DNA of 64,000 nt from contig JACRAZ010000072.1 of assembly GCA_016213205.1 (NCBI GenBank), positions 62,001-126,000 of the forward strand, written 5' to 3'. Shown piece after piece: positions 8,918 through 60,052 of this stretch. Under the pieces are notes generated by a model. The model ran no database searches. It saw only the letters and a list, made by a program, of their open reading frames with translations, and was not told where the DNA came from. Positions within the stretch are counted from its first letter, which is position 1; each line of letters begins with the position of its first letter. A program made the translations under genes and the position numbers. Source of the DNA: Burkholderiales bacterium (GTDB lineage Bacteria > Pseudomonadota > Gammaproteobacteria > Burkholderiales > Burkholderiaceae_C).

Positions 8918-8984
8918 CGACCAAGACCGGGCAGTCGGCCCGCAGGGCCGACCGCCGGAGCCGTGCGCCGCAGGCTGAGGGCCC

Positions 8985-9052
8985 ACGCCTTTGTCGCACC
9001 ACACAACGAACGTCTGCTCTGCAACCCAACCAAAGACAGCAACGGGCCGACA
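8985..9052 (-). repeat. Dispersed intergenic repeat, copy B (partial, reversed)
   Basis: Read on the minus strand this gives CGGCCCGTTGCTGTCTTTGG and then GACGTTCGTTGTGTGG, which aligns with the start of copy C (CGGCCCGTTGCTGACTTTGG, then GACGTTCGAGGTGTGG). It lies in the opposite direction to copy A. Confidence 0.6.
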
Positions 9053-9154
9053 GCCGCCCTCGGCCAGACGCGCTTGTCCAAGCCCAAGCCCAGGCGCAGT
9101 GCGCAAGAATCGAAGCGTCATCCTCCACATCCGGTGCCTGAACCACGCACGGCC

Positions 9155-9898: not shown

Positions 9899-10389
9899 TG
9901 ACACCCGCCACCGACGCCCCCGCGCACGAGGGCGCCATCACGCTCGGCGCCGCCTGCAACGTGGGCACGGGTGCGCCGCCGGCGCTGCTGCGCGCGAACT
10001 TCGTGCGCTACCCCGGCTGCCAGCAGCTGCAGCTGTGGCTGCCGCCATCGGGCGGGCAGGGCTACACGCGGCTGCGTGTGCGCCAGGCCGATGGCCGCCT
10101 GCTGCTCGACACCACGGTGCAGCACTGCGTGCAGGGCAGCGTGCAGATCCTGTTCGACACGCTGCACTGGCCGCCCGGCGCGCTGCAGCTGGAGATCGAC
10201 CATGCCGAGGGCTGGCGCCACTGCCTGCCGCTGCACAAGTCGCACGACGGCACGCCGCCCACGCTGCCGCAGCCGGCGGCGCAGGCCGATCCGGGCGAGG
10301 ACCTGCGCCTGCGCGCGCAAGCGCTGCAGGACCTGGCCCGGCGCCTTGCGCCCGAGGCCGGCGAGGACCCGACCCGCTTCCACCGCTGA
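9898..10389 (+). CDS. Hypothetical protein coupled to the ATPase
   Basis: A 163-residue soluble protein with no recognised motif. Residues 15-115 look like a compact, possibly beta-rich domain, followed by a Pro/Ala linker and a charged C-terminal helix. It starts within the stop of the ATPase gene (TGATG), which argues that the two proteins are made in fixed ratio and act together. There is no signal peptide or membrane helix. Confidence 0.65.
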   Translation: MTPATDAPAHEGAITLGAACNVGTGAPPALLRANFVRYPGCQQLQLWLPPSGGQGYTRLRVRQADGRLLLDTTVQHCVQGSVQILFDTLHWPPGALQLEIDHAEGWRHCLPLHKSHDGTPPTLPQPAAQADPGEDLRLRAQALQDLARRLAPEAGEDPTRFHR

Positions 10390-10420
10390 TCGGCACGCCC
10401 GGCCGCGAGGGTGCGGCCGC

Positions 10421-11713: not shown

Positions 11714-11958
11714 CGCACGCCGGGGCGTTGTGTCGATGGCTGGAGCGTACCCGCTCGCGGCGACACCCGGGCTTGCGCAGGCGCAGGGCTTGGTGGTTCA
11801 GGCGCCCGGGCGGCGTGCACCGATGCGCGCGCGCCGCACCCGCCGCCCGATCCCCCGCGAACCGGGGGGGTGCGCGGCCCGGTGGCCGGGCCGAGTTCAC
11901 TAGTGCACTTCAGATGCCGGGCTGCGGCGCCTAGTCTTGCGGCCATCTAACCTGATAA

Positions 11959-12774
11959 ATGAAGGGAATCACCAAGACACGCAATTTCAGCGGCCGCGCC
12001 TGGCTCGCCGCCCTGCTGCTGGCCACCGGGGCCGTGGCGCAGGCCGCGCCGATCTCCAGCAGCCTGGTCATCACGGGCAGCGTGACGCTCGACACCGCCA
12101 ACTCGGTGGCCACCACCGGCGGCGCCAGCCAGAGCGCCACGCTGAAGAAGGTGGTGGGCGGCACCACCACCACCGGCAGCTTCAGCGGCAACCCCGCCAG
12201 CATCAGCGCCAACCCGCTGGCCGCGACGCTCACCGACCTGGGTGATGGCTTCGGCGCGCACTTCAGCATGGGCGGCAGCTTCGCCGGCAGCGCGATGACC
12301 AGCGACGCGCTGTTTGCCGACTACCTGCTGAACCTGGTGAACAACTCGCTCACCGAAACCTTCACGATCACCTTCCACGCCAGCATCGCCAACGCGGTGT
12401 CGGCCAGCGGCGCGGATGCGTTTGCGCAATCGGACATCAGCCTGAAGACCGCGAGCAACGTGGAGCTGCTGTTCTCCGACCACCGCATCGACACGCTCAA
12501 CACCGGCCCGGGCAACAACTTCACGCAGGAGGGCGGCGGCAACAGCTTCTCGGTGACGCTGGCGCCGGGCCAGTCGGCCAGCTTCAACGCGCTGCAGCGC
12601 CAGCGCGGCGGCGTGTTCGCGGCCGGCAGCTACGGTGCCGACCTGAACGCCTTCCTGTTTGTGGACAGCGTGGTGGGCACCGGTGGCCCGCAGCCGGTGC
12701 CGCTGCCCGGCAGCCTGCCGCTGGCGGTGCTGGCACTGGGCGCGCTGAGCCTGTCACACCTGCGCCGGCGCTGA
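11959..12774 (+). CDS. Exported protein with a PEP-CTERM-like C-terminal sorting tail
   Basis: A 271-residue exported protein with an N-terminal signal peptide (cleavage probable after VAQAA) and a body rich in Thr, Ser and Ala. The C-terminus has the tripartite form of exosortase substrates: a short motif (VPLPGSLPL), a hydrophobic helix and a basic end (RRR). The motif is a VPLPG variant rather than the classical VPEPG. Such proteins are cut and anchored by an exosortase and are often linked to exopolysaccharide; no exosortase gene lies in this window. Function of the body unknown. Confidence 0.7.
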   Translation: MKGITKTRNFSGRAWLAALLLATGAVAQAAPISSSLVITGSVTLDTANSVATTGGASQSATLKKVVGGTTTTGSFSGNPASISANPLAATLTDLGDGFGAHFSMGGSFAGSAMTSDALFADYLLNLVNNSLTETFTITFHASIANAVSASGADAFAQSDISLKTASNVELLFSDHRIDTLNTGPGNNFTQEGGGNSFSVTLAPGQSASFNALQRQRGGVFAAGSYGADLNAFLFVDSVVGTGGPQPVPLPGSLPLAVLALGALSLSHLRRR

Positions 12775-12802
12775 CACCGGCCCCCCCCACCAAGGAATTG
12801 CC

Positions 12803-13417
12803 ATGAAGAACCTTTCCACCCGCGTGTTGTGCACGCTGGCCGCACTGGCTGGCGCCGTTGCCGCCTCGCCCGCCTTGGCCACCTGTTCGACCGAGCCCTA
12901 CCTGGGCTCGATCTGCATCACCGCGGCCACCTACTGCCCCACCAACTACCTGGATGCGAACGGCCAGACCATGGCCATCGCGCAGAACTCGGCGCTGTTC
13001 TCGCTGCTGGGCACCACCTATGGCGGCAACGGCGTCACCACCTTCCAGTTGCCCAACCTGCAGAGCCGGCTGCCGCTGGGCATCGGCCAGGGCGCGGGCC
13101 TGTCGCCGGTGCAGCAGGGCGAGGTGTCGGGCCAGGAATCGGTGACGCTCAGCACCGCGCAATTGCCGGCGCACAGCCACACGGCGCAGCTCCACGGGCT
13201 GGCCGCCGCCGGCAACACCGACAGCCCGGCCGGTGCGGTGCCGGCCCAGTTGTCACGCTCCAACAACTACAGCAACGCGGCCGCCAACACGGCCATGGGG
13301 GCCAGCGCCATCACCGTGGGCAGCACCGGCAGCAACCAGCCGGTGGCACTGCGCAACCCCTACCTGGGCCTGCGCTACTGCATCGCGATCCAGGGCCTGT
13401 ACCCCTCGCGGCCCTGA
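12803..13417 (+). CDS. Exported phage tail-collar domain protein (microcystin-dependent-protein type)
   Basis: A 204-residue protein with a Sec signal peptide (AASPALA then C). The mature part has the tail-collar fold signature: an N-terminal segment with FSLLGTTYGGNG and TTFQLPNLQSRLPLGIG, a central LPAHSHT motif, and a closing NPYLGLRYCIAIQGLYP. Such proteins occur free of prophages in many bacteria; their role is unclear. It lies 28 nt after the PEP-CTERM-like gene with its own AAGGA ribosome site, so the two exported proteins may be co-transcribed. Confidence 0.85.
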   Translation: MKNLSTRVLCTLAALAGAVAASPALATCSTEPYLGSICITAATYCPTNYLDANGQTMAIAQNSALFSLLGTTYGGNGVTTFQLPNLQSRLPLGIGQGAGLSPVQQGEVSGQESVTLSTAQLPAHSHTAQLHGLAAAGNTDSPAGAVPAQLSRSNNYSNAAANTAMGASAITVGSTGSNQPVALRNPYLGLRYCIAIQGLYPSRP

Positions 13418-13488
13418 GCGCCAGGCCAGGCCCTGCAGCGCGGCGCGGCGGGCGGCACAATCGGCCGCTTTCATCATCGGGTAGGGTC

Positions 13489-13893
13489 ATGGTCCATTCC
13501 GGCGGCTGCCTTTGCGGCGGCATCACCTTTCGCATCGCGGGCGCGCTGGCGCCGATCCAGGTGTGCCACTGCAGCCAGTGCCGCAAGGCGCAGGGCGCAC
13601 CGTTTGCCACCAATGTGCCGGTGGACACCGCGGCGCTGCAGCTGAACGATCCCGAGGGCCTGCTGCAGGTGTACGAATCCAGCCCCGGCAAGGAGCGTGT
13701 GTTCTGCCGCCGCTGCGGCTCGCCGCTGTTCAGCCGCAGGACATCGTTGCCCGGTGTCGTGCGCCTGCGCGCGGGCCTGATCGACGAGCCGGTGCGCTCG
13801 CAGCTCGCCTGGCATGCCTACCTGGGCTCGAAGTGCAGCTGGTGGCCGGTGGACGACGCGCTGCCGCACTTCGACGAAGGCGCGCCCGGCTGA
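13489..13893 (+). CDS. GFA (glutathione-dependent formaldehyde-activating type) family protein
   Basis: A 134-residue zinc-binding protein of the GFA/CENP-V fold. Conserved cysteines are visible in GGCLCGGI, VCHCSQCRKAQG and CRRCGSPLF, which in the family bind two zinc ions. Residue order and length are typical. The family name derives from one enzyme that condenses glutathione with formaldehyde; most members, including this one, have no proven substrate. Confidence 0.88.
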   Translation: MVHSGGCLCGGITFRIAGALAPIQVCHCSQCRKAQGAPFATNVPVDTAALQLNDPEGLLQVYESSPGKERVFCRRCGSPLFSRRTSLPGVVRLRAGLIDEPVRSQLAWHAYLGSKCSWWPVDDALPHFDEGAPG

Positions 13894-13987
13894 GCACCTG
13901 ACACAGGCCCGGGCACGCGGGCCGTCCGCCGCAAGGGCAGGGCGCACTACAGTCGGTGCCATCACCGGCCGACCGAGGAGCCCCGCC

Positions 13988-14743
13988 ATGGACCTTGCAC
14001 TGCAGGACCGCACCGCGCTGGTCACCGGCGCCAGCGTGGGCATCGGCCGCGGCATTGCGCTGGCGCTGGCGGCCGAGGGCGTGCGCCTGGCCATCACCGC
14101 GCGCCGGCGCGACAAGCTGCAGACGCTGGCCGACGAGATCGTGGCCGCCGGCGGCCACCCGCCGCTGCTGATCCAGCAGGACATGGTGGCCGACGATGCG
14201 GCCCAGCGCCTGGCCGGCGCCGCGCTGCAGGCCCTGGGCAGCGTGGACATCCTGGTCAACAACGCCGGCGGCTCGCGCAGCTTCAAGGACCTGCACGTGG
14301 GCGAGGCGCAGTGGCAGGAAGCGATCACGCTGAACTTCCATCGCCCGCGCCAGCTGGGCGATGCGCTGGTGGATTCGATGATCGCGCGGCGCTGGGGCCG
14401 CATCATCAACATCACCGGCAAGAGCGAGCCCGAGCACGTGAACGGCGCCTTCTGCGCCAAGGCCGCGCTGCACAGCTGGGCCAAGGGCCTGTCGCGCATG
14501 GTGGGGCCCCACGGCATCACGGTGAACTGCATCCCGCCCGGGCGCATCCACTCCGAGCAGATCTATCGCAACTACACGCCGGAATACCGGCAGTGGCAAA
14601 GCGAGCACGAGATCCCGATGGGCCGCTACGGCGAGCCGCAGGACATCGCGAACCTCGTATGCTTCCTGGCCAGCCCGCGGGCCGGCTACATCACCGGGGC
14701 CGTGATCCCGGTGGATGGCGGCCTGCGGCGCTACCAGTTCTGA
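13988..14743 (+). CDS. SDR-family oxidoreductase lacking the catalytic tyrosine
   Basis: A 251-residue Rossmann-fold protein of the short-chain dehydrogenase family. The cofactor loop TGASVGIGRG (about 14-23) and the NNAGG motif are intact, as is the C-terminal GAVIPVDGG of FabG-like members. The usual Y-x-x-x-K active-site pair is not: the segment reads GAFCAKAALHSW, so the Lys is present but the residue four places before it is Ala. The Ser region is also unusual (NITGKSEPE). Either this is a branch with a different acid/base arrangement or it does not act as a dehydrogenase. It stands between a GFA protein and a Bug receptor. Confidence 0.85.
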   Translation: MDLALQDRTALVTGASVGIGRGIALALAAEGVRLAITARRRDKLQTLADEIVAAGGHPPLLIQQDMVADDAAQRLAGAALQALGSVDILVNNAGGSRSFKDLHVGEAQWQEAITLNFHRPRQLGDALVDSMIARRWGRIINITGKSEPEHVNGAFCAKAALHSWAKGLSRMVGPHGITVNCIPPGRIHSEQIYRNYTPEYRQWQSEHEIPMGRYGEPQDIANLVCFLASPRAGYITGAVIPVDGGLRRYQF

Positions 14744-14783
14744 TCGCCCCCAGGGCCGGCCTGCGCCCAGCCCGCCCCCCGTG

Positions 14784-14825
14784 GGGGTCAGGCAAAGTGG
14801 CGGAGCCACACTTGCCTGAGACCCC
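14784..14825 (+). terminator. Stem-loop between the SDR and Bug genes
   Basis: GGGGTC/AGGCAA/GTGG pairs with CCAC/TTGCCT/GACCCC around a 5-nt loop, with small bulges. It has no T-tract, so it could be a Rho-dependent stop, an attenuator or an mRNA-stabilising hairpin ahead of the receptor gene, whose start codon lies 21 nt further on. Confidence 0.5.
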
Positions 14826-14846
14826 ACCACCCGAGGAGTTGCCGCC

Positions 14847-15827
14847 ATGACGATCCACCGCCGCAGCGTGCTGGCCACCTCGCTGGCCTCCACCCTGGCC
14901 TGGCCCGGCCTGCTGCACGCGCAGCCGGCCTGGCCGCGCCAGTCGATCCGCTTCGTCGTGCCGTTCGCGCCGGGGGGCACCTCGGAGATCGTGGCGCGCA
15001 CGGTGGCGCTGGAGCTCACCAAGCAGCTCGGCCAGACCGTGTTCGTGGAAAACAAGGGCGGCGGCGCCGGCCTGCCGGCGATGCAGGAAGTGGCCAAGGC
15101 CACGCCGGACGGGCACACGCTGATCCTGGGCCACGTGGGCTCGCTGGCGGTGAACCCGGTGATCTTCCCGAACCAGCCCTTCGACGTGAACAAGGACTTC
15201 CTGCCGGTCACGCTGCTGGCCAAGGTGCCCAACCTGTTTGTCATCCACCCCGATGTGCCGGCCAGGGACTTCAAGGAGTTCGTCGCCCACGTGAAGAAGA
15301 ACCCGGGCCGGCTGAACTACGGCTCGGCCGGCAATGCGAGCGCCGGCCACCTGGCGATGGAATACCTGAAGCTGGTGACGGGCATGTTCATCACCCACAT
15401 CCCCTCCCGCGGCACCGGCCCGCAGCTCACCGACCTGCTGGCCGGCCGCACCCAGGCCTCGTCCGCCGGGCTGCCGGCGCTGCTGGCCCACATCAAGGCC
15501 GGCAAGCTGCGCGCCATCGCGGTGGGCACCAGCCAGCGCCTGGCCCAGCTGCCCGATGTGCCCACCGTGGCCGAGATGGGCTACCCCGGTTTCGAAACCT
15601 CGCAGTGGTACGGCATCCTGGTGCCGGCGGGCACGCCGCGCGAGATCGTCAAGCGCCTGCAGGAAGAAGGCCTGAAGGCCTTGAAATCCAACGCCGTGAC
15701 CGAGCGCTTCGTGAACGACAGCGCCATCGGCGGTGGCGGCCCGCCCGAAGAATTTGCGGCCTACATCGCGCAGCAGCAGAAGGTGTGGAAGGACATCGTG
15801 CAGCGCGCGGGCATCAAGCCCGATTGA
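14847..15827 (+). CDS. Bug family tripartite tricarboxylate transporter receptor
   Basis: A 326-residue periplasmic solute-binding protein. The signal peptide carries a twin arginine (HRRSVLATS), so Tat export is possible. The mature start (WPRQSIRFVVPFAPGG) and the later SAGNASAGHL and PTVAEMGYPGF segments are hallmarks of the Bug/TctC family, which bind carboxylates and small organic acids. The TctA/TctB membrane partners are not nearby, as is usual for the many orphan Bug proteins of Burkholderiales. Confidence 0.93.
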   Translation: MTIHRRSVLATSLASTLAWPGLLHAQPAWPRQSIRFVVPFAPGGTSEIVARTVALELTKQLGQTVFVENKGGGAGLPAMQEVAKATPDGHTLILGHVGSLAVNPVIFPNQPFDVNKDFLPVTLLAKVPNLFVIHPDVPARDFKEFVAHVKKNPGRLNYGSAGNASAGHLAMEYLKLVTGMFITHIPSRGTGPQLTDLLAGRTQASSAGLPALLAHIKAGKLRAIAVGTSQRLAQLPDVPTVAEMGYPGFETSQWYGILVPAGTPREIVKRLQEEGLKALKSNAVTERFVNDSAIGGGGPPEEFAAYIAQQQKVWKDIVQRAGIKPD

Positions 15828-15848
15828 GCGCACGCGGGCCGCGGCCCG

Positions 15849-15873
15849 CCACGCCACGCCACGCCACGCCACG
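15849..15873 (+). repeat. Five tandem copies of CCACG
   Basis: A perfect 5 x 5-bp microsatellite between the convergent Bug and DMT transporter genes. It lies outside both coding regions, so length change there would not alter a protein. Confidence 0.9.
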
Positions 15874-15881
15874 GGCCCGGC

Positions 15882-16799
15882 TCAGCCCTCGTCGGCGCGC
15901 GCGCCCCGCGATTCGCGCCGCGCGAGCCACAGCGTGGCGGCGCTGATCAGCGTGCCGCCCAGCAGCGTGGTCTGGCTGGGCACATCGGCAAACAGCAGCC
16001 AGCCCATCAGCGCCGACCACACCAGGTCCAGGAACTTGGCCGATTGGGTGGCCGAGATGTCGGCCGCCTGGAACGAGCGCGTGAGGCAGTAGTGCCCGGC
16101 GCTGCCCAGCAGGCCGCAGAACGCGAACCCGGCCCACTGCCAGGCCGTGAGCCACTGCCAGTGCCACAGCGCCAGCGGCAGGCTCAGCAGCGAGACGCTG
16201 ATCGATTGCCACACCAGGATGACGCTGGCGTTCTCGTAGCGCGTCATCGCCTTGGTGAGCAGGAAGGAGCCGGCGAACACCGGGGCCGACAGCAACATCA
16301 GCAGGTGGTAACCACCGCCCTGGCCCGACAGGCGCGGGCCGACGACGATCAACACCCCGGCAAAGCCCGCCAGCGTGGCCAGCCAACGCTCCCAGCGCAT
16401 CGGCTCGCGGAAGAACAGGTAGGCGCCGATCATGATGAAGATCGGGCCGGTGAAGCCGATGGCCGTCATGTCGGCCAGCGGAATGCGCGGCAGCGCGGTG
16501 AACCACAGGCACAGGCCCAGCGTGTGCACCGCGCCGCGCACGAACTGGTCGCCCACGTGGCGCGGCCGGAAGGCCGCCAGCCCCTGGTGCCACACCAGCG
16601 GCAGCAGCACCAGCAGGCCGAAGAAGTAGCGCAGGAACTGCGACTGGAACGGGTCCAGGTGCAGCGTGAGCGCGCGCATCAGCGCATTGAGCATGCTGAA
16701 CAGCAGCCCGGCGGCACTGGTCCACAGCAGGCCACGGGTGGTGGGGCTCCAGCGCCGGGCGCGCTGGCCCAGCGCGGCCCGGAGAGACAACACAGTCAT
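15882..16799 (-). CDS. DMT family (EamA) permease
   Basis: A 305-residue inner membrane protein with about ten hydrophobic helices in two EamA-type halves, as in drug/metabolite exporters. The start chosen is ATG 16799 (MTVLSLRAAL); the frame stays open for 82 more codons upstream, but that extension is Pro/Arg-rich and unlike the family. The first EamA half begins with FSMLNALMRAL and FLRYFFGLL. No neighbour suggests the substrate. Confidence 0.87.
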   Translation of the reverse strand: MTVLSLRAALGQRARRWSPTTRGLLWTSAAGLLFSMLNALMRALTLHLDPFQSQFLRYFFGLLVLLPLVWHQGLAAFRPRHVGDQFVRGAVHTLGLCLWFTALPRIPLADMTAIGFTGPIFIMIGAYLFFREPMRWERWLATLAGFAGVLIVVGPRLSGQGGGYHLLMLLSAPVFAGSFLLTKAMTRYENASVILVWQSISVSLLSLPLALWHWQWLTAWQWAGFAFCGLLGSAGHYCLTRSFQAADISATQSAKFLDLVWSALMGWLLFADVPSQTTLLGGTLISAATLWLARRESRGARADEG

Positions 16800-52072: not shown

Positions 52073-52618
52073 TCAGCGCCGCTCGCGTCGCAGCCGCATC
52101 GCGCGGCCGATGCGCTCGAGTTCGGCCGTGCCCAGCAGGCGGGCGGCCATCGGCAGCAGTTCACCGTCCTCGCGCGCGATGTGCCGCTCGTACAGGCCGA
52201 TGAATGTCTCCGCCGCCTCGGCGGACCAGCCGGCCGCATCGCCGGCGGCCACCTGCAGCAGCACCGCGCGCAGGGCCTGCCACTGGCGCTCCAGCACGCG
52301 GTGCTCCTGCGCCAGGGCTGCCGTCATCTCGCGCAGGCACACCGCGTCCGAGCCGGCCATGGCCTCCAGCAGCGCGGGGAACAGGTCCTGCTCCTCGTCT
52401 GCGTGGTGGTCGGGCGCGGCGGTGTCGAAGTAGCGCACCAGCGCCTGCGCGGCCTCGCGGGCCTGGGTGTCGGCCCCCTGCGCCGCCAGGTGGGGCCCGA
52501 GCCGGCGCAGCGTGCCGCACTGCGCCTCGATGCGCCCGTGGCAGGCGGCCAGCATCTCCAGCGGCACCTCGAAGCCGGCGGCCGGCGCGGCGTGGCCCGG
52601 GAAGGGCGTGGCCTTCAT
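52073..52618 (-). CDS. Hemerythrin (HHE) domain protein
   Basis: A 181-residue helical protein with the di-iron HHE pattern: CHGRIEAQCG, DHHADEEQDLFP, LAQEHRVLERQW and YERHIAREDGELLP. Such proteins bind oxygen or NO or help repair iron-sulfur clusters after nitrosative stress (YtfE/DnrN-like idea). Its start overlaps the stop of nsrR (ATGA), so it is the last gene of the minus-strand NO-response operon. Confidence 0.9.
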   Translation of the reverse strand: MKATPFPGHAAPAAGFEVPLEMLAACHGRIEAQCGTLRRLGPHLAAQGADTQAREAAQALVRYFDTAAPDHHADEEQDLFPALLEAMAGSDAVCLREMTAALAQEHRVLERQWQALRAVLLQVAAGDAAGWSAEAAETFIGLYERHIAREDGELLPMAARLLGTAELERIGRAMRLRRERR

Positions 52619-53121
52619 GCCGCCCCGCGCCGCGGCTGCCGGGCCGCGCGCCGGGCTGGCCCGGCCGCGGGCGACAGCGGGATCGTGCGTCGCGCACCCG
52701 GTGCCGCGCGCGAGGCCGCCGCGGGGCCGGCGATGTCGGCCAGCGTGGCGCCGTCCAGCTCCTTGAAGTAGGCCTGCAGCGCCGAGCCGAACAGCCGCTT
52801 CAGCCGGCAGCTGGCACTGAGGGTGCACACATTGGTCTGCGGGTCGAAGCATTCGACGAGCCGGAAGTCGGTCTCGGAAGCGCGCACCACGTCGCCGATG
52901 CGGATGCTGGCCGGGTCCTTCAGCAGCCGCAGGCCGCCGCCGCGGCCACGGGTGGTCTCGAGCACGCCCTGGCGGGCCAGGTCGTTGACGATCTTCATCA
53001 GGTGGTTCTTCGACAGGCCGTGGTGCTCGGCCAGCGTGCCGATGGTGACCAGCTCGTCGCGGTGCGTGGCGCAGTACATCAGCACCCTCAGCGTGTAGTC
53101 GGTGTATTCGGCCAGTCGCAT
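52615..53121 (-). CDS. nsrR: Rrf2 family NO-sensing repressor NsrR
   Basis: A 168-residue repressor: winged helix (LTIGTLAEHHGLSKNHLMKIV-like region, about 25-45) and three cysteines (C91, C99, C105) in the loop VECFDPQTNVCTLSASCRLK that bind the Fe-S cluster destroyed by NO. The C-terminal tail, about 30 residues rich in Arg, Ala and Pro, is longer than usual. It is coupled to the hemerythrin gene. A conserved NsrR-like element lies 12 bp upstream of its start, implying autoregulation. Confidence 0.92.
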   Translation of the reverse strand: MRLAEYTDYTLRVLMYCATHRDELVTIGTLAEHHGLSKNHLMKIVNDLARQGVLETTRGRGGGLRLLKDPASIRIGDVVRASETDFRLVECFDPQTNVCTLSASCRLKRLFGSALQAYFKELDGATLADIAGPAAASRAAPGARRTIPLSPAAGPARRAARQPRRGAA

Positions 53122-53132
53122 GGCGGCTCCTG

Positions 53133-53161
53133 AAGATGCGCAAAGTATATGGATTTGATCC
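53133..53161 (-). promoter_or_regulatory. NsrR-like element upstream of nsrR
   Basis: On the plus strand it reads AAGATGCGCAAAGTATATGG and then ATTTGATCC. AAGATGC is the NsrR half-site, and the whole element aligns with the one at 55607-55636 (AAGATGCACAGACTATATTG then CTTTGAATCC). It stands between nsrR and the Crp/Fnr gene. Confidence 0.6.
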
Positions 53162-53188
53162 GGCGGCGCGGCTCGGCCGTGCGGCGCC

Positions 53189-53875
53189 TCAGCGCCGCCG
53201 CACCGCGGCCTCGAGCCGATGCCGGTCGGGCACGGTGATCGTGCGGCCCTGCACCTGCAGCAGGCCGGCGCCGGCCAGCTGCTGCAGCACGCGCGAGAAG
53301 TGCTCGGGCGTCAGGTTCAGCAGCGAGGCGATCTCGGCCTTGGCCGCCGGCAGGCGCAGCACCAGCGGCTGCGTGGTGCCGGCGCGGCGCAGCAGCCAGG
53401 CCACGAAGCGGGCGGTGCCGCTGCCCAGGGCCTGGCGGTCGATCTGCTCCACCAGCCGCTCGATGCGCTGGCTCAGGCCGGCGATCATGTGGCGCGCAAA
53501 ACCCGGGTGGCGCTCGATCGCATCGAACACCGCTGCCTTGGGCAGGTGCAGCAGCAGCGCATCGCTGGCCGCCCGTGCGGCCACCAGCGTGGGCCGCTCG
53601 AGAAACATCACCGGCTCGCCGAAGCTCTGCCCCGGCCGCACCAGGCCGCACAGCCGCGTGCCGCCCGCCGGCGTGCGCTGGCTCAGCTTGATCTCGCCGT
53701 ACACCACGAGGTACATGCCGGTGGCCGGCTCGCCCTGGCCGAACAGCGCCTCGCCGCGCTTGAGCGTGCGCCGCGTGGCCTGCGCGGCCAGCTCGGCCCG
53801 CGCGGCCGCATCCAGGGCCTTGAACAGCGGCAGGCCCGCCAGGAACACCTCGGGGGCGATCTGCCGGCGGGCCAT
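53189..53875 (-). CDS. Crp/Fnr family regulator, Dnr-like
   Basis: A 228-residue regulator: cyclic-nucleotide-binding-like domain (residues about 15-130; MYLVVYGEIKLSQ, GQSFGE), dimer helix, and winged helix with LLNLTPEHFSRVLQQLAGAGLL. Only one cysteine is present, so no Fnr-type 4Fe-4S cluster; heme-based NO sensing as in Dnr is probable. It is encoded between the FmdE-like gene and nsrR on the same strand. The likely targets are the genes of this locus and other denitrification genes. Confidence 0.9.
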   Translation of the reverse strand: MARRQIAPEVFLAGLPLFKALDAAARAELAAQATRRTLKRGEALFGQGEPATGMYLVVYGEIKLSQRTPAGGTRLCGLVRPGQSFGEPVMFLERPTLVAARAASDALLLHLPKAAVFDAIERHPGFARHMIAGLSQRIERLVEQIDRQALGSGTARFVAWLLRRAGTTQPLVLRLPAAKAEIASLLNLTPEHFSRVLQQLAGAGLLQVQGRTITVPDRHRLEAAVRRR

Positions 53876-53881
53876 GGGCGG

Positions 53882-54502
53882 TCAAGCCAGCTGCACGATC
53901 AGCGCCGGGTCGTCGGCATGCTCGATCAGCAGCAAGCGCACCCAGTCCTGCCAAGCCTGGCCGAAGGCCTGGCGCGTGGCCGCGTCCGCCCCGGGGGCCA
54001 GCGCCTGCGGCATCAGCGTGCGCAGCGCCGCGGGCCGCGGCACGGCCTGGCCGTTGTGTGCGAGCTCGATGGCGGCGCCGGTGTCGATGCGGGTGAAGCG
54101 CATCTCGCCGCGCATCGGCACGCCAAAGCGCAGCAGGTCCCGGCGGCCGTGCTGGCCGGCCAGGCCCTTGAAGCCGCCTTCGCTGGCCGCGCCGGTGACC
54201 AGCCCCGCCACGCTGGCCAGCACGCCGCTCACGCCTTCGTCCAGCGCCTGGCGCAGCGCCACCTGCAGCGCGCCGCGGCGCGGCAGGCCTGCCGGGTAGA
54301 GATGGCCGAGTGCCTTGCGCGTCATCAGCCAGGCGCCGGCCACCGTGGGGCAGGAGTGGCCGGCCAGGCGCACCGCGTCGGCATAGGTGTAGCGCAGCAC
54401 GCCGCCCTCGGCCGCGCCCAGCAGCTCGGCCAGCAGGTCGTGCATCACGATGGGCGGCACCGCGTCGTAGAAGGCGGGCAGGCGCGAGGCGGCTTCGGTC
54501 AT
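53882..54502 (-). CDS. FmdE-like protein
   Basis: A 206-residue soluble protein. The segment TYADAVRLAGHSCPTVAGAW resembles the metal-binding GHxCPG/T motif of FmdE-domain proteins, which are otherwise known from formylmethanofuran dehydrogenase. In betaproteobacteria such proteins are seen near NO-response genes; the function is unknown. It lies six bases before the Crp/Fnr gene and 13 after the periplasmic protein gene, so it belongs to the operon. Confidence 0.65.
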   Translation of the reverse strand: MTEAASRLPAFYDAVPPIVMHDLLAELLGAAEGGVLRYTYADAVRLAGHSCPTVAGAWLMTRKALGHLYPAGLPRRGALQVALRQALDEGVSGVLASVAGLVTGAASEGGFKGLAGQHGRRDLLRFGVPMRGEMRFTRIDTGAAIELAHNGQAVPRPAALRTLMPQALAPGADAATRQAFGQAWQDWVRLLLIEHADDPALIVQLA

Positions 54503-54515
54503 GGCGGCGGCACCC

Positions 54516-55007
54516 TCAGTGGATGTTGCGGATCGGCTTGAAGCCCGGGTGATCGAAGTGGCCGCCGTAGGCATTGACGGCCTGCGCCAGCTTGACCAGG
54601 CCCTGCGCCGGCGGCAGCTGGGGGTTCTTGCCCCGCATCGCGTCGGTGCCGGCGCCCAGCTCGGCGATCACGCCATGCAGCATGGCATCGGCCTGGGGTT
54701 CGAGCTTGCAGGTGGCCACGATCTTGCCGACCTCGGCCTCGACTTGCGTGGCCAGGTCCTGGTACTGCGCGGCCGGCAGCTTGCCGGTGTGCGCCGCGCC
54801 CAGGCGCGGCGCCACCAGGCCGCGGATGCGGTTCATGCCCTCGCGCAGCGGTGCATCGGTGGCCCACTTGCGGCCGTGGTCCAGCGCCAGCTTGTGCGGC
54901 GCGGCGGTCTCGTGGGCGTGCTCGGCCGCCAGCGCGGGGGCGGCGGTGGTGGCCAGGGCGGCGGCGGCCAGGGCGGTGGCCAGGGTCTTCCAGTGCGGCA
55001 GGTTCAT
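54516..55007 (-). CDS. Periplasmic protein of the NO locus
   Basis: A 163-residue protein with a Sec signal peptide (ALAAAALATTAAPALAAEHA). The mature part is helical: LDHGRKWATDAPLREGMNRI, YQDLATQVEAEVGKIVATC and LHGVIAELGAGTDAMRG, with a conserved final NAYGGHFDHPGFKPIRNIH. I have seen relatives near denitrification genes, but I cannot assign a function. One cysteine in the mature part. First gene of a minus-strand operon with the FmdE-like protein. Confidence 0.75.
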   Translation of the reverse strand: MNLPHWKTLATALAAAALATTAAPALAAEHAHETAAPHKLALDHGRKWATDAPLREGMNRIRGLVAPRLGAAHTGKLPAAQYQDLATQVEAEVGKIVATCKLEPQADAMLHGVIAELGAGTDAMRGKNPQLPPAQGLVKLAQAVNAYGGHFDHPGFKPIRNIH

Positions 55008-55100
55008 CTTGACTTCCTCGTTGGGGATGGCGGCGACCATCGCCGCGCCACCGCGTGGGAGAGGGGCTGCCGCCGGGCGTTCCGCCGTCGTTGCGCAGGC

Positions 55101-55115
55101 TGAAGAATCATCAAG
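55101..55115 (-). promoter_or_regulatory. Weak Fnr/Dnr half-site
   Basis: The minus strand reads CTTGATGATTCTTCA. TTGAT is one perfect half of the Fnr/Dnr box TTGAT-N4-ATCAA, but the second half matches poorly. It lies about 95 bp upstream of the periplasmic protein gene. It is a guess that would fit with control by the Dnr-like gene of the same operon. Confidence 0.25.
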
Positions 55116-55195
55116 AAAACAGCCCTCTCAGTTTTCAATGGCGCTTGCCGCGACCCCCGACGCATGAACCCGACGCCCCCAGCGAGCGCCGCGAA

Positions 55196-55263
55196 ACCGG
55201 CTTCGCCGGGCCGCTGGCGCTGCCCCCCTGGGGGGGAGGCGCCGAAGGCGCTTCGGGGGGGGG
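55196..55263 (+). repeat. GC-rich palindromic repeat before the DUF2249 stop codon
   Basis: CCGGGCCGCTGGCGCTGCCC, then CCCCCTGGGGGGG and GGCGCCGAAGGCGCTTCGGG. It is similar in style to the elements at 31307-31371 and 51578-51636, and separates the DUF2249 gene from the downstream operon. Confidence 0.5.
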
Positions 55264-55265
55264 GA

Positions 55266-55523
55266 TCACTTCATGCTGAAGTCGATGACGATGGCGCCGG
55301 GCTCGCGCTGCAGGTACTCGACGCCGACCCGGTCGCCATAACGCTGCGCGATCTGCGCCAGCAGCGGCAGCGGGTCGTGGTCGTTGGCAAAACGCATGGT
55401 CTCGCCCGGGTGCAGGCTGTCGAGCGCACCGAAGATCGCCGCATGCCGGAAGCGCTTGGCCACGCCCCGCGCGTCGAAGGGGTAGATGGCGTCGGGCGAC
55501 AGGTGCAGGTGCGGCTGGGACAT
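55266..55523 (-). CDS. DUF2249 domain protein
   Basis: An 85-residue protein consisting of one DUF2249 domain: GALDSLHPGETMRFANDHDPLPLL and QREPGAIVIDFS. In other bacteria the domain is found alone or fused to hemerythrin in NO and nitrogen-oxide loci. It is divergent from the oxidase operon across a promoter region with NsrR-like sites. ATG 55523 is behind GGAG. Confidence 0.88.
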   Translation of the reverse strand: MSQPHLHLSPDAIYPFDARGVAKRFRHAAIFGALDSLHPGETMRFANDHDPLPLLAQIAQRYGDRVGVEYLQREPGAIVIDFSMK

Positions 55524-55606
55524 GGAAGGCTCCTCGGGCTCAAGGGGTGGACGGCCTGCCGATGCGTACACGCGGCGCGGCCGCGGTGGCCGCATCGAAG
55601 ACCCTA

Positions 55607-55636
55607 AAGATGCACAGACTATATTGCTTTGAATCC
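55607..55636 (-). promoter_or_regulatory. NsrR-like element 2 in the divergent promoter region
   Basis: AAGATGCACAGACTATATTG followed by CTTTGAATCC. It begins with the NsrR half-site AAGATGC and aligns over its whole length with the element ahead of nsrR at 53133-53161. Its position, 84 bp upstream of the DUF2249 start, makes it the likely control site of that gene. Confidence 0.55.
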
Positions 55637-55647
55637 GTCGCGTCACT

Positions 55648-55670
55648 AACATGCACAAAAAAAGCATCTT
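55648..55670 (+). promoter_or_regulatory. NsrR-type operator of the oxidase operon
   Basis: AACATGC, nine bases (ACAAAAAAA), then GCATCTT: a 7-9-7 palindrome with one mismatch to the known NsrR consensus AAGATGC-N9-GCATCTT. It is 62 bp upstream of the CcoN-like start, in an AT-rich island. Confidence 0.75.
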
Positions 55671-55732
55671 TGTTTTGATCCAGCGCAGATCCGCGGCAGC
55701 GGGTGCGCCGGATCCGACCGTGGAGCCCCCCG

Positions 55733-57376
55733 ATGAACACTGCCACTCTCCTGTTGTCGGCCTTCGTGCTGTCCTTCGTTGCCTTGCTGGTCTTCATCGC
55801 GTCGCAGCGAACCGGCCTGTTCGATCGCCGCAGCCAGGGCGCCGCGCTGATCTTCGCGCCCGGCGAGATCGGCCGCGCCGAGGAACCCGCCGCCGCGCCG
55901 GCCGCGCAGCACCGCCTGCAGGCCGCCATCGATGCGGCCTCGCCGGGCGCGCCACCAGGCGCCGATGCGCAGGCCCTGCGTGATCGCGCGCGGGCCGATG
56001 CCTCCACCGCGCCGCTGGTCTTCGTCTTCTACTGCTGCGCGATCGGCTGGCTGCTGGTGGCCTCGGCGGCCGGGCTCACCGCCTCGATCAAGCTGCACGA
56101 GCCCGACTGGCTGGCGCAGCAGGCCTGGCTCACGTTCGGCCGCATCCGCACGCTGCACCTCAATGCGGTGGCCTACGGCTGGGCGCCGATGGCGGGCCTG
56201 GGCACGGCGATGTTCGTGATCCCGCGCCTGCTGAAGACGCCGCTGCTGGGCGCGCGCTTCGCGTTGGTCGGCCTGGTGCTGTGGAACGCGGGGCTGATCG
56301 CAGGGCTGGGCAGCATCGCCGCCGGCATCAACGACGGGCTGGAGTGGCTCGAGATCCCGTGGCAGATCGGCCTGCTGTTCGCGCTGGGCGGCGCCCTCAT
56401 CGCGCTGCCGCTGGTGTTCACGCTGGTGAACCGGCGGGTGGAGCACCTGTACGTCTCGGTCTGGTACATGGCCTGCGGGCTGTTCTGGCTGCCGGTGCTG
56501 TACGGGGTGGCCAAGATCCCGGGGCTGCACCAGGGCGTGCAGCAGGCGGCGATGAACTGGTGGTTCGGCCACAACGTGCTGGGCCTGTTCTACACGCCGC
56601 TGGCGCTGGCCTCGGTGTACTACTTCCTGCCCAAGGTGATCGGGCGGCCGATCCAGTCGTACAACCTGTCGCTGCTGGGCTTCTGGGGCCTGGCCTTCTT
56701 CTATGGCCAGGTGGGCGGCCACCACCTGATCGGCGGGCCGGTGCCGGAGTGGCTGGTCACGCTGTCCATCGTGCAGAGCGTGATGATGGTCATCCCGGTG
56801 GCCGCGTTCACCGTGAACCAGGTGCAGACGCTGCGCGGCCGCCTGTCGGCGCTGCGCCACTCGCCCACGCTGCGCTTCATCGTCGTGGGCGCGCTGATGT
56901 ACACCGCCAGCTCGGTGCAGGGCTCGCTGGAGGCGCTGCGCAGCGTGAACGCCGTCACCCATTTCACGCACTACACGGTGGCGCATGCGCACCTGGGGCT
57001 GTACGGCTTCGTGAGCTTCGTGTTCTTCGGCGCGATGTACTTCGTGATGCCGCGCATCACCGCCCGCGAGTGGCCCTACCCGGCCTGGATCGCGGCACAC
57101 TTCTGGCTGGTGGCCATCGGCTTTGCGATCTACTTCGTCACGCTCACCACCGCCGGCTGGCTGCAGGGCACGGCGATGCTGGATGCGGCGCGGCCCTTCA
57201 TGGACTCGGTGGCGGTGACCCTGCCCTGGCTGAAGGGGCGCAGCCTCGGCGGCACGCTGATGGTGGCGGGCCACCTCGTGTTTGCCGCGCACTTTGCGGC
57301 GCTGGTGCTGAACCTGGGGCCGCAGCGGCGGCAGGCGGCGCTGTTCCGCCACCCGGCGGGCGCGGAGGTGGCGTGA
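55733..57376 (+). CDS. Divergent cbb3-type heme-copper oxidase subunit I (CcoN-like)
   Basis: A 547-residue membrane protein with about 12-14 helices. Metal ligands of the heme-copper fold are all there: H142 (RTLHLNAVAYGW) and H420 for the low-spin heme or high-spin heme pair, H418, and for CuB H280 (WFGHN) with H330-H331 (GGHHL). The Tyr six positions before the HH pair is also kept (Y324). The segment YGQVGGHH, however, replaces the YIWAGPHH of standard CcoN, and a long polar loop (about 30-95) is inserted after the first helix. It starts an operon with a CcoO-like protein but no CcoP/CcoQ, behind an NsrR-type operator. Role: NO-related or oxygen reduction under nitrosative stress, inferred. 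Confidence 0.85.
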   Translation: MNTATLLLSAFVLSFVALLVFIASQRTGLFDRRSQGAALIFAPGEIGRAEEPAAAPAAQHRLQAAIDAASPGAPPGADAQALRDRARADASTAPLVFVFYCCAIGWLLVASAAGLTASIKLHEPDWLAQQAWLTFGRIRTLHLNAVAYGWAPMAGLGTAMFVIPRLLKTPLLGARFALVGLVLWNAGLIAGLGSIAAGINDGLEWLEIPWQIGLLFALGGALIALPLVFTLVNRRVEHLYVSVWYMACGLFWLPVLYGVAKIPGLHQGVQQAAMNWWFGHNVLGLFYTPLALASVYYFLPKVIGRPIQSYNLSLLGFWGLAFFYGQVGGHHLIGGPVPEWLVTLSIVQSVMMVIPVAAFTVNQVQTLRGRLSALRHSPTLRFIVVGALMYTASSVQGSLEALRSVNAVTHFTHYTVAHAHLGLYGFVSFVFFGAMYFVMPRITAREWPYPAWIAAHFWLVAIGFAIYFVTLTTAGWLQGTAMLDAARPFMDSVAVTLPWLKGRSLGGTLMVAGHLVFAAHFAALVLNLGPQRRQAALFRHPAGAEVA

Positions 57377-58002
57377 TGAAAAGCGAGATCAAGCTGCTGT
57401 CGGGCGCGATGGTGATGCTGGGCCTGTCCACCAGCGCGCTGGTGGTGCTGCCCTACCTGCAGGTGCACGATGCGCCGCCTTCGCCGGGCCTGAAGCCCTA
57501 CACCCGCGCCGAGCTGCGCGGGCGCGAGGTCTACATCGCCAACGGTTGCCTGTACTGCCACTCGCAGCAGCCGCGGGCCAGGGCGATGGCGCCGGACGCC
57601 GCGCGCGGCTGGGGCCGCGCCACCGTGGCCGGCGACTATGCCTACGACGCGCCGCACCTGCTGGGCACCATGCGCACCGGGCCCGACCTGATGAACATCG
57701 GCGTGCGCCAGCCCAGCGCGCAGTGGCAGCTGGGCCACCTGTACCAGCCGCGGGCCTACGTGCCGGGCAGCATCATGCCGAGCTACCCGTTCCTGTTCGA
57801 CACCAAGGCCCAGGCCGAGGCGGGCGACGTGGTGCTGCAGCTGCCACCCGGCCACGCGCCCGCCGGCCAGGTGGTGGTGGCCCGGCCCGAGGCGCTGGAC
57901 CTGGTGAAGTACCTGCAATCGCTGGACCGCAGCTACCCGGTGCTGCCGGCCCGCGCGGCGGCCGGGCCAGCGCCGCAGGGCGACAGGAGGGCCGTGCAGT
58001 GA
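57376..58002 (+). CDS. CcoO-like monoheme cytochrome c subunit
   Basis: A 208-residue protein anchored by one N-terminal helix (GAMVMLGLSTSALVVLPYL), with the heme c site CLYCHS (C58, C61, H62) and the family marks YIANGCLYC, GRATVAGDYAYDAPHLLGTMRTGPDL and YVPGSIMPSYPFLF. It matches CcoO of cbb3 oxidases. It overlaps the CcoN-like gene by one base and the next by four (GTGA), so the three are made together. Confidence 0.9.
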   Translation: MKSEIKLLSGAMVMLGLSTSALVVLPYLQVHDAPPSPGLKPYTRAELRGREVYIANGCLYCHSQQPRARAMAPDAARGWGRATVAGDYAYDAPHLLGTMRTGPDLMNIGVRQPSAQWQLGHLYQPRAYVPGSIMPSYPFLFDTKAQAEAGDVVLQLPPGHAPAGQVVVARPEALDLVKYLQSLDRSYPVLPARAAAGPAPQGDRRAVQ

Positions 58003-58598
58003 ACACGCCAGACCCGATGGCCGCGCCGCAACGGCGCGAACACCCGGAGCCGCACGAAGCGGCGCGCCCGATGCCGTGGTACCTGCCCGCCCTCACGGCG
58101 CTGCTGCTGGCCTTCGGCGCGCTGTACATCGCGCGCAGCCCCGTGGGGGACGTGCCGGCCAGGGGCGACGGCCGCTCGGTGGCCGAGCTGCAGGGCCCGG
58201 CGCCGGGCGCCACGGGCACGCCCCTCGACGCCGCTGCGCTGTACGCCGCGCGCTGTGCGGCCTGTCACCAGGCCAGTGGCGCGGGCCTGCCCGGCGTGTT
58301 CCCGCCGTTGGCGGGCTCGGAGTGGGTGACGGGGCCGCAGCGGCGCCTGGCCGCCGTGGTGCTGCATGGCGTCAGCGGGCCGCTGACGGTGAAGGGCCAG
58401 CCCTACGCCGGCGCCATGCCGGCCTTCGCGGCGCAGCTGCAGGATGCGGAACTGGCGGCCCTGCTCAGCCACCTGCGGGGCCAGTGGGGCAACGCGGCCG
58501 CGCCGGTGAGCGCCGACACCGTGGCCGCGGTGCGGCGTGACACGGCCGCCCGCAGCGGGCCGTTCCAGGGCGGGGCCGAACTCGAGGCCTTTCGCTAG
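57999..58598 (+). CDS. Membrane-anchored monoheme cytochrome c
   Basis: A 199-residue protein with GTG start behind AGGAGGG. One helix (WYLPALTALLLAFGALYIA), a linker, and a class I cytochrome c with heme site CAACH (C86, C89, H90) and axial Met in GAMPAF. It takes the place of the diheme CcoP of a normal cbb3 oxidase, and carries only one heme. The C-terminal part (about 165-199) is polar and unassigned. Confidence 0.87.
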   Translation: MNTPDPMAAPQRREHPEPHEAARPMPWYLPALTALLLAFGALYIARSPVGDVPARGDGRSVAELQGPAPGATGTPLDAAALYAARCAACHQASGAGLPGVFPPLAGSEWVTGPQRRLAAVVLHGVSGPLTVKGQPYAGAMPAFAAQLQDAELAALLSHLRGQWGNAAAPVSADTVAAVRRDTAARSGPFQGGAELEAFR

Positions 58599-58619
58599 GG
58601 CCTGGACCGCCACCGCAGC

Positions 58620-59360
58620 ATGCGCACAACGCCCCTCCCGCCGGCACCGCCGGCACCCGCCCCCGGCGGCGCGGCCCGCGCCGCGAGCCCGAGGCAGGCG
58701 CTGGCCCGCCCTGGGCGCAGGCGCCGCCAGGCGCTGCCCGCCGCGGCCTGGGTGAGCGCCACGCTGTGCCTGCTGATGCTGGCCGGCCTGGGCGCCGGCC
58801 TGCACCATTGGACGGCCGGCTTCGAGGCCTGGACTTACGAGGCCCGGCGTGAGCGCCAGATCGACGCCGGCCTGCTGCGCGCGCCAGCGCTGGCCCTGCG
58901 GGGCGCCGACGGGCGGCCGGTGCGGCTGCGGCAGGACGGCGGCGCCGCCGCGGCCACGCTGGTGGACTTCATTTACACCCGCTGCCCGGGTGTCTGCCGC
59001 ACGCTGGGCAGCGAGTTCCAGCAGATGCAGCAGCAGCTCGCCGAGCAGCCCGCCGCGGTGCGGCTGGCCTCGATCTCGTTCGATCTGGCGCACGACGACG
59101 CCGCCGCACTGGCGCGTCATGCCGCCAGCCTGCGCGCGCAGCCACGCTGGTGGACCCTGGCCGTGCCCGACAGCCCGGCCGACGCGCAGGCGCTGCTGCG
59201 TGCGCTGGGCGTGGTGGTGGTGCCGGACGGGCAGGGCGGCTGGGTGCACAACGGCGCCATCCACCTGCTGGACGGGCAGGGCCGGCTGCGTGGGCTCTAC
59301 GGCTTCAACCAGTGGCCACAGGCGCTGGCGGATGCGCGCGCGCTGGCCTCCCGGCCATGA
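58620..59360 (+). CDS. SCO1/SenC family copper chaperone
   Basis: A 246-residue membrane-anchored thioredoxin-fold protein. The copper site is C122-x-x-x-C126 in YTRCPGVC, with a His at 215 in NGAIHLLD. An Arg/Pro-rich N-terminus precedes the helix at about 43-61. SCO proteins deliver copper to CuA or CuB sites or act as thiol reductases, so its place here supports a CuB-containing enzyme in the operon. Confidence 0.92.
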   Translation: MRTTPLPPAPPAPAPGGAARAASPRQALARPGRRRRQALPAAAWVSATLCLLMLAGLGAGLHHWTAGFEAWTYEARRERQIDAGLLRAPALALRGADGRPVRLRQDGGAAAATLVDFIYTRCPGVCRTLGSEFQQMQQQLAEQPAAVRLASISFDLAHDDAAALARHAASLRAQPRWWTLAVPDSPADAQALLRALGVVVVPDGQGGWVHNGAIHLLDGQGRLRGLYGFNQWPQALADARALASRP

Positions 59361-60052
59361 AGCATCCGGCCATGAGACGCCCGATGCCGCCCCTGCGCCG
59401 CCTGGCGCCCCTGCTGCACGCCGCGCTGGCCGTGCTGCCGCTGGCCTTGCTGTGGCCGCTGCTGCGCCATGCGCTGGAAAGCCGCATGTCGCTGCACATG
59501 CTGCTGGAGTTCCCGGCGCTGGCGCTGGCCGGCGCGTCGGCCCAGCGGCTGGCCGGGCGGCATGCGGGGCTGCGGCGCATCGGCCGGCACCTGCGGGTGC
59601 TGGATTGGCATGGCTGGAGTGGCGCCACCTTCGCCAGCGCGGTGGCCACGGTGTGGATGCTGCCGTCGGCGCTGGATGCGGCCCTGCTGTCGGAGGCGGT
59701 GAACGCCGCCAAGATGGCCAGCTGGTGGCTGGCCGGCTGGCTGGTGGCCGGCAGTGCGCGCCGCTGGGGCCCCGAGCTGCTGGTCTTCGGCGCCGGCAAC
59801 CTGGGCTGGATGATGGCCACCGCAGGCCTGCTCTACCTCGATGCGCCCAGCGCGCTGTGCGTGAACTACGGTGCCGACGACCAGCGCATCACCGGCACCG
59901 GCCTGGTGATGCTGGCCTGCCTGCTGGGCGCGCTGGCGCTGCGGCGGGCGCTGCGGCTGGCCGAGCCCCGGCCGCCCGGCCCGCAGGCGGCCCGCGCCCC
60001 GGCCGCCGAAGCATGCAATATCACCGGCCCGGCGCACCCTTCCCGTGGCTGA
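59357..60052 (+). CDS. Membrane protein of unknown function in the oxidase operon
   Basis: A 231-residue protein with about six hydrophobic helices (e.g. LHAALAVLPLALLWPLLRHAL and ALSEAVNAAKMASWWLAGWLVAGS-like region near 118-140). Conserved-looking polar residues are in LEFPALALAG and FGAGNLGWMMAT. It is coupled to the SCO gene by an ATGA overlap. It resembles no family I can name; an assembly factor for the oxidase is a reasonable inference. Confidence 0.7.
   Translation: MKHPAMRRPMPPLRRLAPLLHAALAVLPLALLWPLLRHALESRMSLHMLLEFPALALAGASAQRLAGRHAGLRRIGRHLRVLDWHGWSGATFASAVATVWMLPSALDAALLSEAVNAAKMASWWLAGWLVAGSARRWGPELLVFGAGNLGWMMATAGLLYLDAPSALCVNYGADDQRITGTGLVMLACLLGALALRRALRLAEPRPPGPQAARAPAAEACNITGPAHPSRG

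Follow-up and report, generated by a model that had tools for sequence, protein, structure and literature searches.

The DNA analysed here, a stretch of 64,000 nucleotides that we call the window (GenBank assembly GCA_016213205.1, contig JACRAZ010000072.1, positions 62,001 to 126,000), comes from a Burkholderiales bacterium and carries on its plus strand, at 55733-60052, five closely packed genes for a divergent relative of the cbb3 oxidases. A first-pass annotation, made from the sequence alone, had described this locus as regulated by nitric oxide (NO) and built around a cbb3-like core without CcoP or CcoQ, and had read the enzyme as either an NO reductase or an NO-tolerant terminal oxidase.

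Organization of the operon

The genes and their products are the following:

55733..57376, plus strand: N, the catalytic subunit, CcoN-like; its C-family heme-copper core starts near residue 100 (Pfam COX1, 278 bits).
55733..57376, plus strand, N-terminal part of N: a CcoS-like domain at about residues 1-45, then a polar linker (CcoS/FixS matches in family members).
57376..58002, plus strand: O, a CcoO/FixO-like mono-heme cytochrome c subunit (PF02433, 123 bits).
57999..58598, plus strand: C, a membrane-anchored mono-heme cytochrome c in the place of CcoP (PF13442, Cytochrome_CBB3, 44.8 bits; one CxxCH).
58620..59360, plus strand: SCO, a SCO1/SenC-like copper chaperone near the SenC of sNOR operons (PF02630, 38 bits).
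59357..60052, plus strand: MP, a polytopic membrane protein, homologue of Orf1 of norSY-senC-orf1 (no Pfam match).

Residues of N are numbered from the start at 55733, with a GTG at 55703 as a possible alternative start. Because neighbouring genes overlap by 1-4 bases, C and SCO excepted (21 bases apart), the five genes look like one transcription unit, in agreement with the coupling first proposed for them. The overlap of O and C also means that no CcoQ gene lies between them at this locus. The divergence of the core is equally clear: Pfam recognises N as COX1 and O as FixO, and all three redox subunits score below the curated equivalog cut-offs (N, 260.8 bits with the ccoN model, cut-off 583.15; O, 112.1 bits with ccoO, cut-off 200.65; C, 32.8 bits with CcoP, cut-off 179.95). 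The absence of CcoP is borne out in the sense that C has one heme-c motif (CxxCH) instead of the two of CcoP. A truncated CcoP was considered for C and found no support outside the heme domain, FixP_N appearing in only one of eight proteins, at E 0.12.

A separate clade of the C family

Relatives were sought among 300 genomes of the same order as the window genome, among 398 genomes of its phylum (its own genome counted in both samples) and in named genomes, from which the best 80 loci were taken (61-86% identity to N; further loci exist). N is present in 15 of the 300 genomes at 55-100% identity, the 14 genomes other than its own lying at 55-83%, and below this family the other matches listed are at 46-47% in two genomes, 39% in one and no more than 37% for CcoN relatives. 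This gap below 55% confirms, at the level of sequence identity, a family that is more than a chance likeness. In the phylum sample, five genomes, the own one included, match N at 47% or above. The best 80 named loci belong largely to Burkholderiales and relatives (Cupriavidus, Duganella, Castellaniella, Alcaligenes, Roseateles, Aromatoleum, Denitromonas), while a small number of records, Steroidobacter among them, are gammaproteobacterial. In these loci O and C follow N without exception (80/80), the same-strand counts are 77 for SCO and 75 for MP, and it is the complete N-O-C-SCO-MP set on one strand (75/80), not ccoNOQP, that is standard for the clade. In L074 and L079 (Steroidobacter and Peristeroidobacter) MP-SCO lies on the opposite strand behind N-O-C, and in L082, L128 and L140 the sequence stops shortly past the last operon gene seen.

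For the phylogeny, 83 proteins were aligned: 30 family members (of 100 loci), 3 intermediate and 17 other divergent proteins, 21 canonical CcoN and 12 cNOR sequences. The tree comes from a quick search with support from the Shimodaira-Hasegawa-like approximate likelihood ratio test (SH-aLRT) only and no bootstrap, with long branches flagged and an in-frame stop in some rows, and it was built without qNOR and without the "second" CcoN of Campylobacterota, Aquificota and Actinomycetota. The 30 family rows make a single group (SH-aLRT 95), which L052 and L053 join (99), and from which canonical CcoN (100) and cNOR (100) are both separate. By this phylogeny, N is a C-family clade of its own, a deep-branching relative of the cbb3 enzyme that stands outside canonical CcoN and far from NorB.

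A probable oxygen-reductase center with altered surroundings

The histidines of heme b, heme b3 and CuB reported in the first-pass annotation are present in the window protein (H142, H280, H330, H331, H418, H420), together with the active-site Y324 and the K-channel residues T288, S313, N362 and Y390. Conservation was scored over 95 distinct N-family proteins, which are what remains, with two further loci, after the 102 loci were deduplicated by organism into 97; the picture was similar in the 100 rows before deduplication. In the numbering of P. stutzeri CcoN, positions H60, H207, Y251, H257, H258, H345 and H347 are kept in 95/95 proteins, and the K-channel positions T215, S240, N289 and Y317 are just as invariant, each residue being given its customary part in that channel. 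Since neither the His-Tyr center nor any of these K-channel residues varies in the family, O2 reduction is the most likely main reaction. In cbb3 enzymes the K pathway ends at the cross-linked tyrosine (PMC8780969), and Table A4 of PMC8756737 lists Tyr at this active-site place in O2 reductases, and Glu, Asn, Gln or Asp in NO reductases.

The surroundings of the center have changed. The position of H243 is Gly, and that of W253 is Gln (Q326 in the window), in all 95 proteins; E323 has become Gln in 87, with Glu retained in 8, and P256, directly before the two histidines, is Gly in 87. The GQVGG motif pointed out before HH was read correctly and is typical of the family. These altered neighbours, the change of E323 among them, are one of the grounds for a rival reading, in which N would have evolved within the C family into a dedicated NO reductase and would use the sNOR assembly pair described below, the tyrosine remaining by descent and O2 being a secondary substrate. 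That cbb3 enzymes reduce NO in vitro (PMC8780969) is in its favour; the invariant Y324 and K-channel are against it, since the NO reductases listed in Table A4 of PMC8756737 have another residue at that place.

The predicted fold likewise places N nearest to the cbb3 enzyme. An AlphaFold2 model (mean predicted local distance difference test score, pLDDT, 78.9; 56-67 over the first 40 residues) retrieves CcoN structures first in Foldseek (3mk7, template modelling score 0.85 when scaled to target length), followed by NorB.

A CcoS-like domain fused to N

A long polar insertion after helix 1 had been noted in N. The stretch is real, and its likely nature is a different one. The extra N-terminal helix and the "GLFD...A.VIF" tail resemble CcoS. 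With E values up to 10 allowed, all ten N-terminal fragments give a match to PF03597 (FixS), which passes its cut-off in two, the window protein on its own giving E 0.094, and TIGR00847 (ccoS) appears in nine of the ten, the window not among them and none over the cut-off. In the own genome, a free ccoS stands directly upstream of the canonical ccoN, in frame with it and set apart from it by a stop; a ccoSNOQPGH operon is named in PMC10653808. Because of these matches and of this same-frame adjacency, N is best read as carrying a CcoS-like domain fused to CcoN, with the polar stretch as the linker between them, and the fusion probably arose from the loss of a gene boundary. By eye, the helix is visible in every family row of the tree but one (29 of 30), the exception being L038, whose chosen start is too far upstream; it is not seen in L052.

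A FixS search through 16 operon-bearing genomes found a free ccoS in 13. The sole further matches were the N-terminus of N itself in three (G267, G158 and, below the cut-off, G207), and G250, G107 and G063 have N and no match to a free ccoS. The fusion suggests that CcoS acts one-to-one with CcoN.

A SenC-Orf1 pair, probably for assembly, shared with sNOR

The SCO protein and the membrane protein of the first-pass annotation are present and coupled as described, and they are not generic accessories: by sequence, they are the SenC-Orf1 pair of the sNOR operon, whose order in ammonia oxidizers is norS-norY-senC-orf1 (PMC4940428). In L061 the two systems stand in tandem. Behind the N operon lies another that encodes a CuA-type subunit II, a heme-copper subunit I, SCO and an MP homologue; its subunit I has HVFIN, in which Asn occupies the tyrosine position, the residue listed there for sNOR. 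Hidden Markov models built from family members only find the sNOR Orf1 with MP at 1e-36 to 4e-62 and the sNOR SCO at 6e-56 to 7e-78, the family-only SCO model giving 6e-22 and 1e-13 for the two other SCO proteins of the own genome. A broader MP model, built from 12 family rows and the MP homologue of the second L061 operon, detects MP in 21 of the 300 genomes, among them all 15 with N. Extra or sole copies occur in G294, G063, G071, G084, G148 and G100, and all six of these whole copies end a norS-norY-SCO-MP operon; two weak matches, a fragment at a contig edge in G021 and one of 19 bits with unrecognisable surroundings in G251, are left unassigned. In the MP tree the two operon types are two sister groups (support 95), and in the SCO tree the family and sNOR proteins stand together against the two other SCO proteins (support 88), without separating cleanly from each other.

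MP, or Orf1, is a conserved membrane protein without a known-fold match: its AlphaFold2 model is confident (pLDDT 88.3), and Foldseek against the PDB gave a best E of 0.71. CtaG, which we had presumed as a candidate, was dropped after Pfam gave only weak DUF1404 matches below the cut-off and Foldseek nothing.

Among the assignable cases of the 300 genomes, the SCO-MP pair is found in these two operon types and nowhere else, which speaks for a dedicated NO reductase. The catalytic subunits themselves speak against it, Asn being at the tyrosine position in all seven sNOR loci and Tyr in N; moreover, sNOR, which PMC6967387 calls B-type, may according to the same source be itself a high-affinity oxidase that scavenges O2 at elevated NO. 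The shared SenC-Orf1 pair offers a handle on this debate over sNOR as an NO reductase or as an oxidase for NO-rich conditions. Should one set of helpers mature two such distant kinds of center, the two may serve the same chemistry, and a test of one would inform the other.

NsrR-type boxes and the divergent genes

Two sites lie between the plus-strand operon and the genes transcribed away from it, and they are the only two in the window at the score used:

55607..55629, no strand assigned: asymmetric NsrR-type box, AAGATGCA-N7-TATTGCTT (pattern taken from the window and related loci, not from the literature).
55648..55670, no strand assigned: palindromic NsrR-type box, AACATGCA-N7-AGCATCTT (15/16 positions; 41 bp from the asymmetric box).

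The 23-bp search pattern rests on what we take to be the E. coli NsrR consensus; it was loosened at one position after the window site, and the asymmetric variant was added from these loci. With these patterns, 33 strong sites were found in the 1.87 Mb of the 102 loci, 27 of them within 2.1 kb upstream of N (a limit chosen after the first pattern search), and none in 1.09 Mb of shuffled sequence; over the 97 distinct loci there were 24 upstream sites, in 17 loci, and 6 elsewhere. In the same 97 loci, the published consensus gATGyAT-N5-ATrCATc (PMC1274295), used unaltered and counted from 12/14 positions, matched 19 sites in the 200 kb upstream of N and 18 in the other 1.58 Mb (p = 2e-9); the shuffled 1.09 Mb contained 6 such sites. 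Boxes paired at the same 41-bp distance also occur in L038/L064 (one organism), L071 and L124. In L061, a 14/14 box lies near the norS start of the tandem sNOR operon, an arrangement that, with the boxes upstream of N, can also be claimed for a dedicated NO reductase.

The six genes on the other side of the boxes are:

55266..55523, minus strand: DUF2249 protein, divergently transcribed (PF10006, 91.6 bits).
54516..55007, minus strand: probable periplasmic protein, by eye, family unassigned (no Pfam match).
53882..54574, minus strand: the "FmdE-like" protein of the earlier reading, name unconfirmed (no Pfam match).
53189..53875, minus strand: Crp/Fnr-family regulator (PF00027 and PF13545).
52615..53121, minus strand: Rrf2-family regulator, provisionally NsrR (PF02082, 120.4 bits).
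52073..52618, minus strand: hemerythrin-domain protein (PF01814, 73.1 bits).

The DUF2249, Crp/Fnr and hemerythrin proteins were thus recovered by Pfam as first described, and the FmdE-like name found no such backing. The regulators keep their families and lose some of their precision. The Rrf2 protein scores 118.8 bits with the RirA model and 113.2 bits with the NsrR model (cut-off 182), below the curated cut-off in both cases, and its name therefore rests on the nearby NsrR-type boxes and the context. For the regulator called Dnr-like, the best NCBIfam model is FtrB, below its cut-off, and that name is provisional as well. In the stretches around the best 80 named loci, Rrf2 genes of at least 45% identity occur near 26. 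FNR/Dnr boxes upstream of N reach 9/10 positions in 5 of the 102 loci (0.8% of shuffles) and at least 8/10 in 22 (10% of shuffles), a mild excess with no consistent place, and some family members may well answer to an Fnr-type regulator.

Together, the boxes and the SCO-MP pair tie the locus to NO, as had been proposed; this sequence evidence supports the linkage for the family as a whole, not for every member.

A probable terminal oxidase for conditions with NO

The tyrosine and the channel suggest O2 as the substrate, the shared module suggests the role of sNOR, whichever that is, and the literature on sNOR, as represented in PMC6967387, is divided between NO reduction and oxidase activity; from these three elements an oxidase for NO-rich conditions is the favoured reading. 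We give a little better than even chances to the operon encoding an NO-induced, O2-reducing terminal oxidase that serves when NO is present, one that would probably be NO-tolerant and perhaps NO-reducing on the side. Of the two functions first offered for the enzyme, the invariant tyrosine and K-channel favour O2 reduction, and both are kept as readings.

The following mechanism may be proposed. The Rrf2-type NO sensor (provisionally NsrR) would sit on the two boxes and repress one or both operons until NO, as we infer from knowledge of NsrR, damages its iron-sulfur cluster and frees the promoter. Electrons would then pass from a soluble cytochrome c to the mono-heme C and O subunits, and from these to N, where the b-type hemes and CuB reside. 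N would bring its own CcoS-like maturation helix, while SCO and MP (SenC and Orf1) might aid copper insertion at CuB. The replacement of H243 by Gly, of W253 by Gln and usually of E323 by Gln may lessen NO sensitivity and may permit some NO reduction.

Several results weigh against this interpretation. No sequence feature demonstrates NO tolerance. A site within 2.1 kb upstream of N is found in only 18 of the 97 distinct loci with the published consensus, 17 with our own patterns and 23 with either, the window palindrome matches the published consensus at 11/14 positions, a score equalled at 25777, and strong upstream sites are absent from all 19 loci that neighbour a thymidylate synthase gene. 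Just one of the seven sNOR loci (L061) has a strong box. Five loci outside the typical set (L052, L053 and L058-L060) have N-O-C without a match to SCO-MP, which means that the pair is not essential to the wider clade. Lastly, in the order-level sample the operon is not enriched with Cytochrom_D1 proteins of the NirS type (6/15 genomes with it, 72/285 without, Fisher p 0.23; these counts may contain NirF or NirN), with NirK (2/15 and 35/285, p 1.0) or with the cNOR motif (2/15 and 44/285, p 1.0; lower bounds, because the pattern was strict). Denitrification as the main context was rejected on these counts.

Some of these results bear on the rivals too. The lack of enrichment with nitrite reductases is a further point against a dedicated NO reductase, which on the whole of the evidence we hold improbable. 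The same lack, the missing strong box at most loci and the full O2-reductase signature suit an ordinary accessory microaerobic oxidase of the cbb3 type, which would lie near NO genes by chance in some species. G250, whose only heme-copper subunits I by Pfam are an A-type one and N, and which has no match to NnrS, fits it as well, because N there may be the low-oxygen enzyme. Against such an ordinary oxidase stand the enrichment of strong boxes upstream of N, the SCO-MP module common to sNOR and the canonical cbb3 oxidase already present in the own genome, and we think it unlikely. Besides that oxidase, the own genome encodes an oxidase that is A-type by score and eye, a NirS-type protein, an enzyme resembling eNOR, and two NnrS. 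NnrS is present in 15 of the 16 operon-bearing genomes, a count that, taken without a background rate, is in keeping with the favoured reading.

A bolder version would see here a new C-family lineage turned to NO handling, the first dedicated to reducing NO (or NO and O2) with the cross-linked tyrosine kept, reached by fusing CcoS in cis, swapping CcoP for a mono-heme cytochrome and sharing SenC-Orf1 with sNOR under NsrR control; we regard this as doubtful.

Set beside known systems, the oxidase for NO-rich conditions that we favour resembles the cbb3 enzyme CcoNOQP (P. stutzeri, 3mk7) most closely, this being the best match in both sequence and fold, with the same C-family core, heme and CuB ligands, tyrosine position, K-channel and CcoO. 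It differs in that N shares only about 28-35% identity and forms a separate clade, and in that the operon has the mono-heme C for the di-heme CcoP, no CcoQ, CcoS fused to N, and its own SCO and Orf1-like protein. With the sNOR operon it has in common the homologous closing SenC-Orf1 pair, whereas sNOR combines NorY, the subunit I with Asn at the tyrosine position, with the CuA-type NorS, and here a C-type N with Tyr is accompanied by cytochrome c subunits. The cNOR and qNOR enzymes belong to the same heme-copper superfamily and give the next-best fold matches after CcoN, and N differs from them in keeping the tyrosine (95/95) and in lying far from NorB in the tree (12 cNOR rows, qNOR absent). 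The alternative oxidase Aox, unlike N, is not a heme-copper enzyme. In V. fischeri it belongs to the NsrR regulon (PMC1274295), and a terminal oxidase under an NO-sensing repressor would be what both systems share. Among the titles of published papers that we searched, none was recognised as describing this operon, a CcoS-CcoN fusion or SenC-Orf1 beside a C-type oxidase.

Observations on related loci

Some of the relatives without SCO-MP have other genes in its place. L058 (Paraburkholderia aromaticivorans plasmid pBN2, 9707-16569) has integrase genes and IS110 close by, and its N-O-C precedes genes for a P-type ATPase, a molybdopterin oxidoreductase and one cytochrome c. At the corresponding place, L059 and L060 encode a cytochrome c protein of two domains together with a heavy-metal ATPase.

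Among the other divergent CcoN-like proteins, a clade of 14 rows (L026-L032, L034, L036, L037, L143-L146), many of them from small genomes, seems mostly to lack S240 and Y317 and to keep Y251, in a rough alignment that mixes rows.

An eNOR-like pair, a CuA subunit and a subunit I with HSSQQ, occurs in L006 (G000:C11:44000-63500, about 6671-16345), followed by a UbiA-type prenyltransferase, SCO and a cytochrome b with ferredoxin domains; further on come a very divergent heme-copper subunit (about 45 bits with COX1) and a fusion of cytochrome b with 2Fe-2S and NAD-reductase domains. A similar pair of heme-copper scores a few kb apart is found in G179, G270, G092 and G638, which makes 5 of the 16 genomes.

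Finally, in L056 (Azoarcus sp. KH32C plasmid pAZKH, 14152-16708) msrB-msrA, a DUF2189 gene and one for a Crp/Fnr protein come after the operon, which hints at the repair of oxidative damage.

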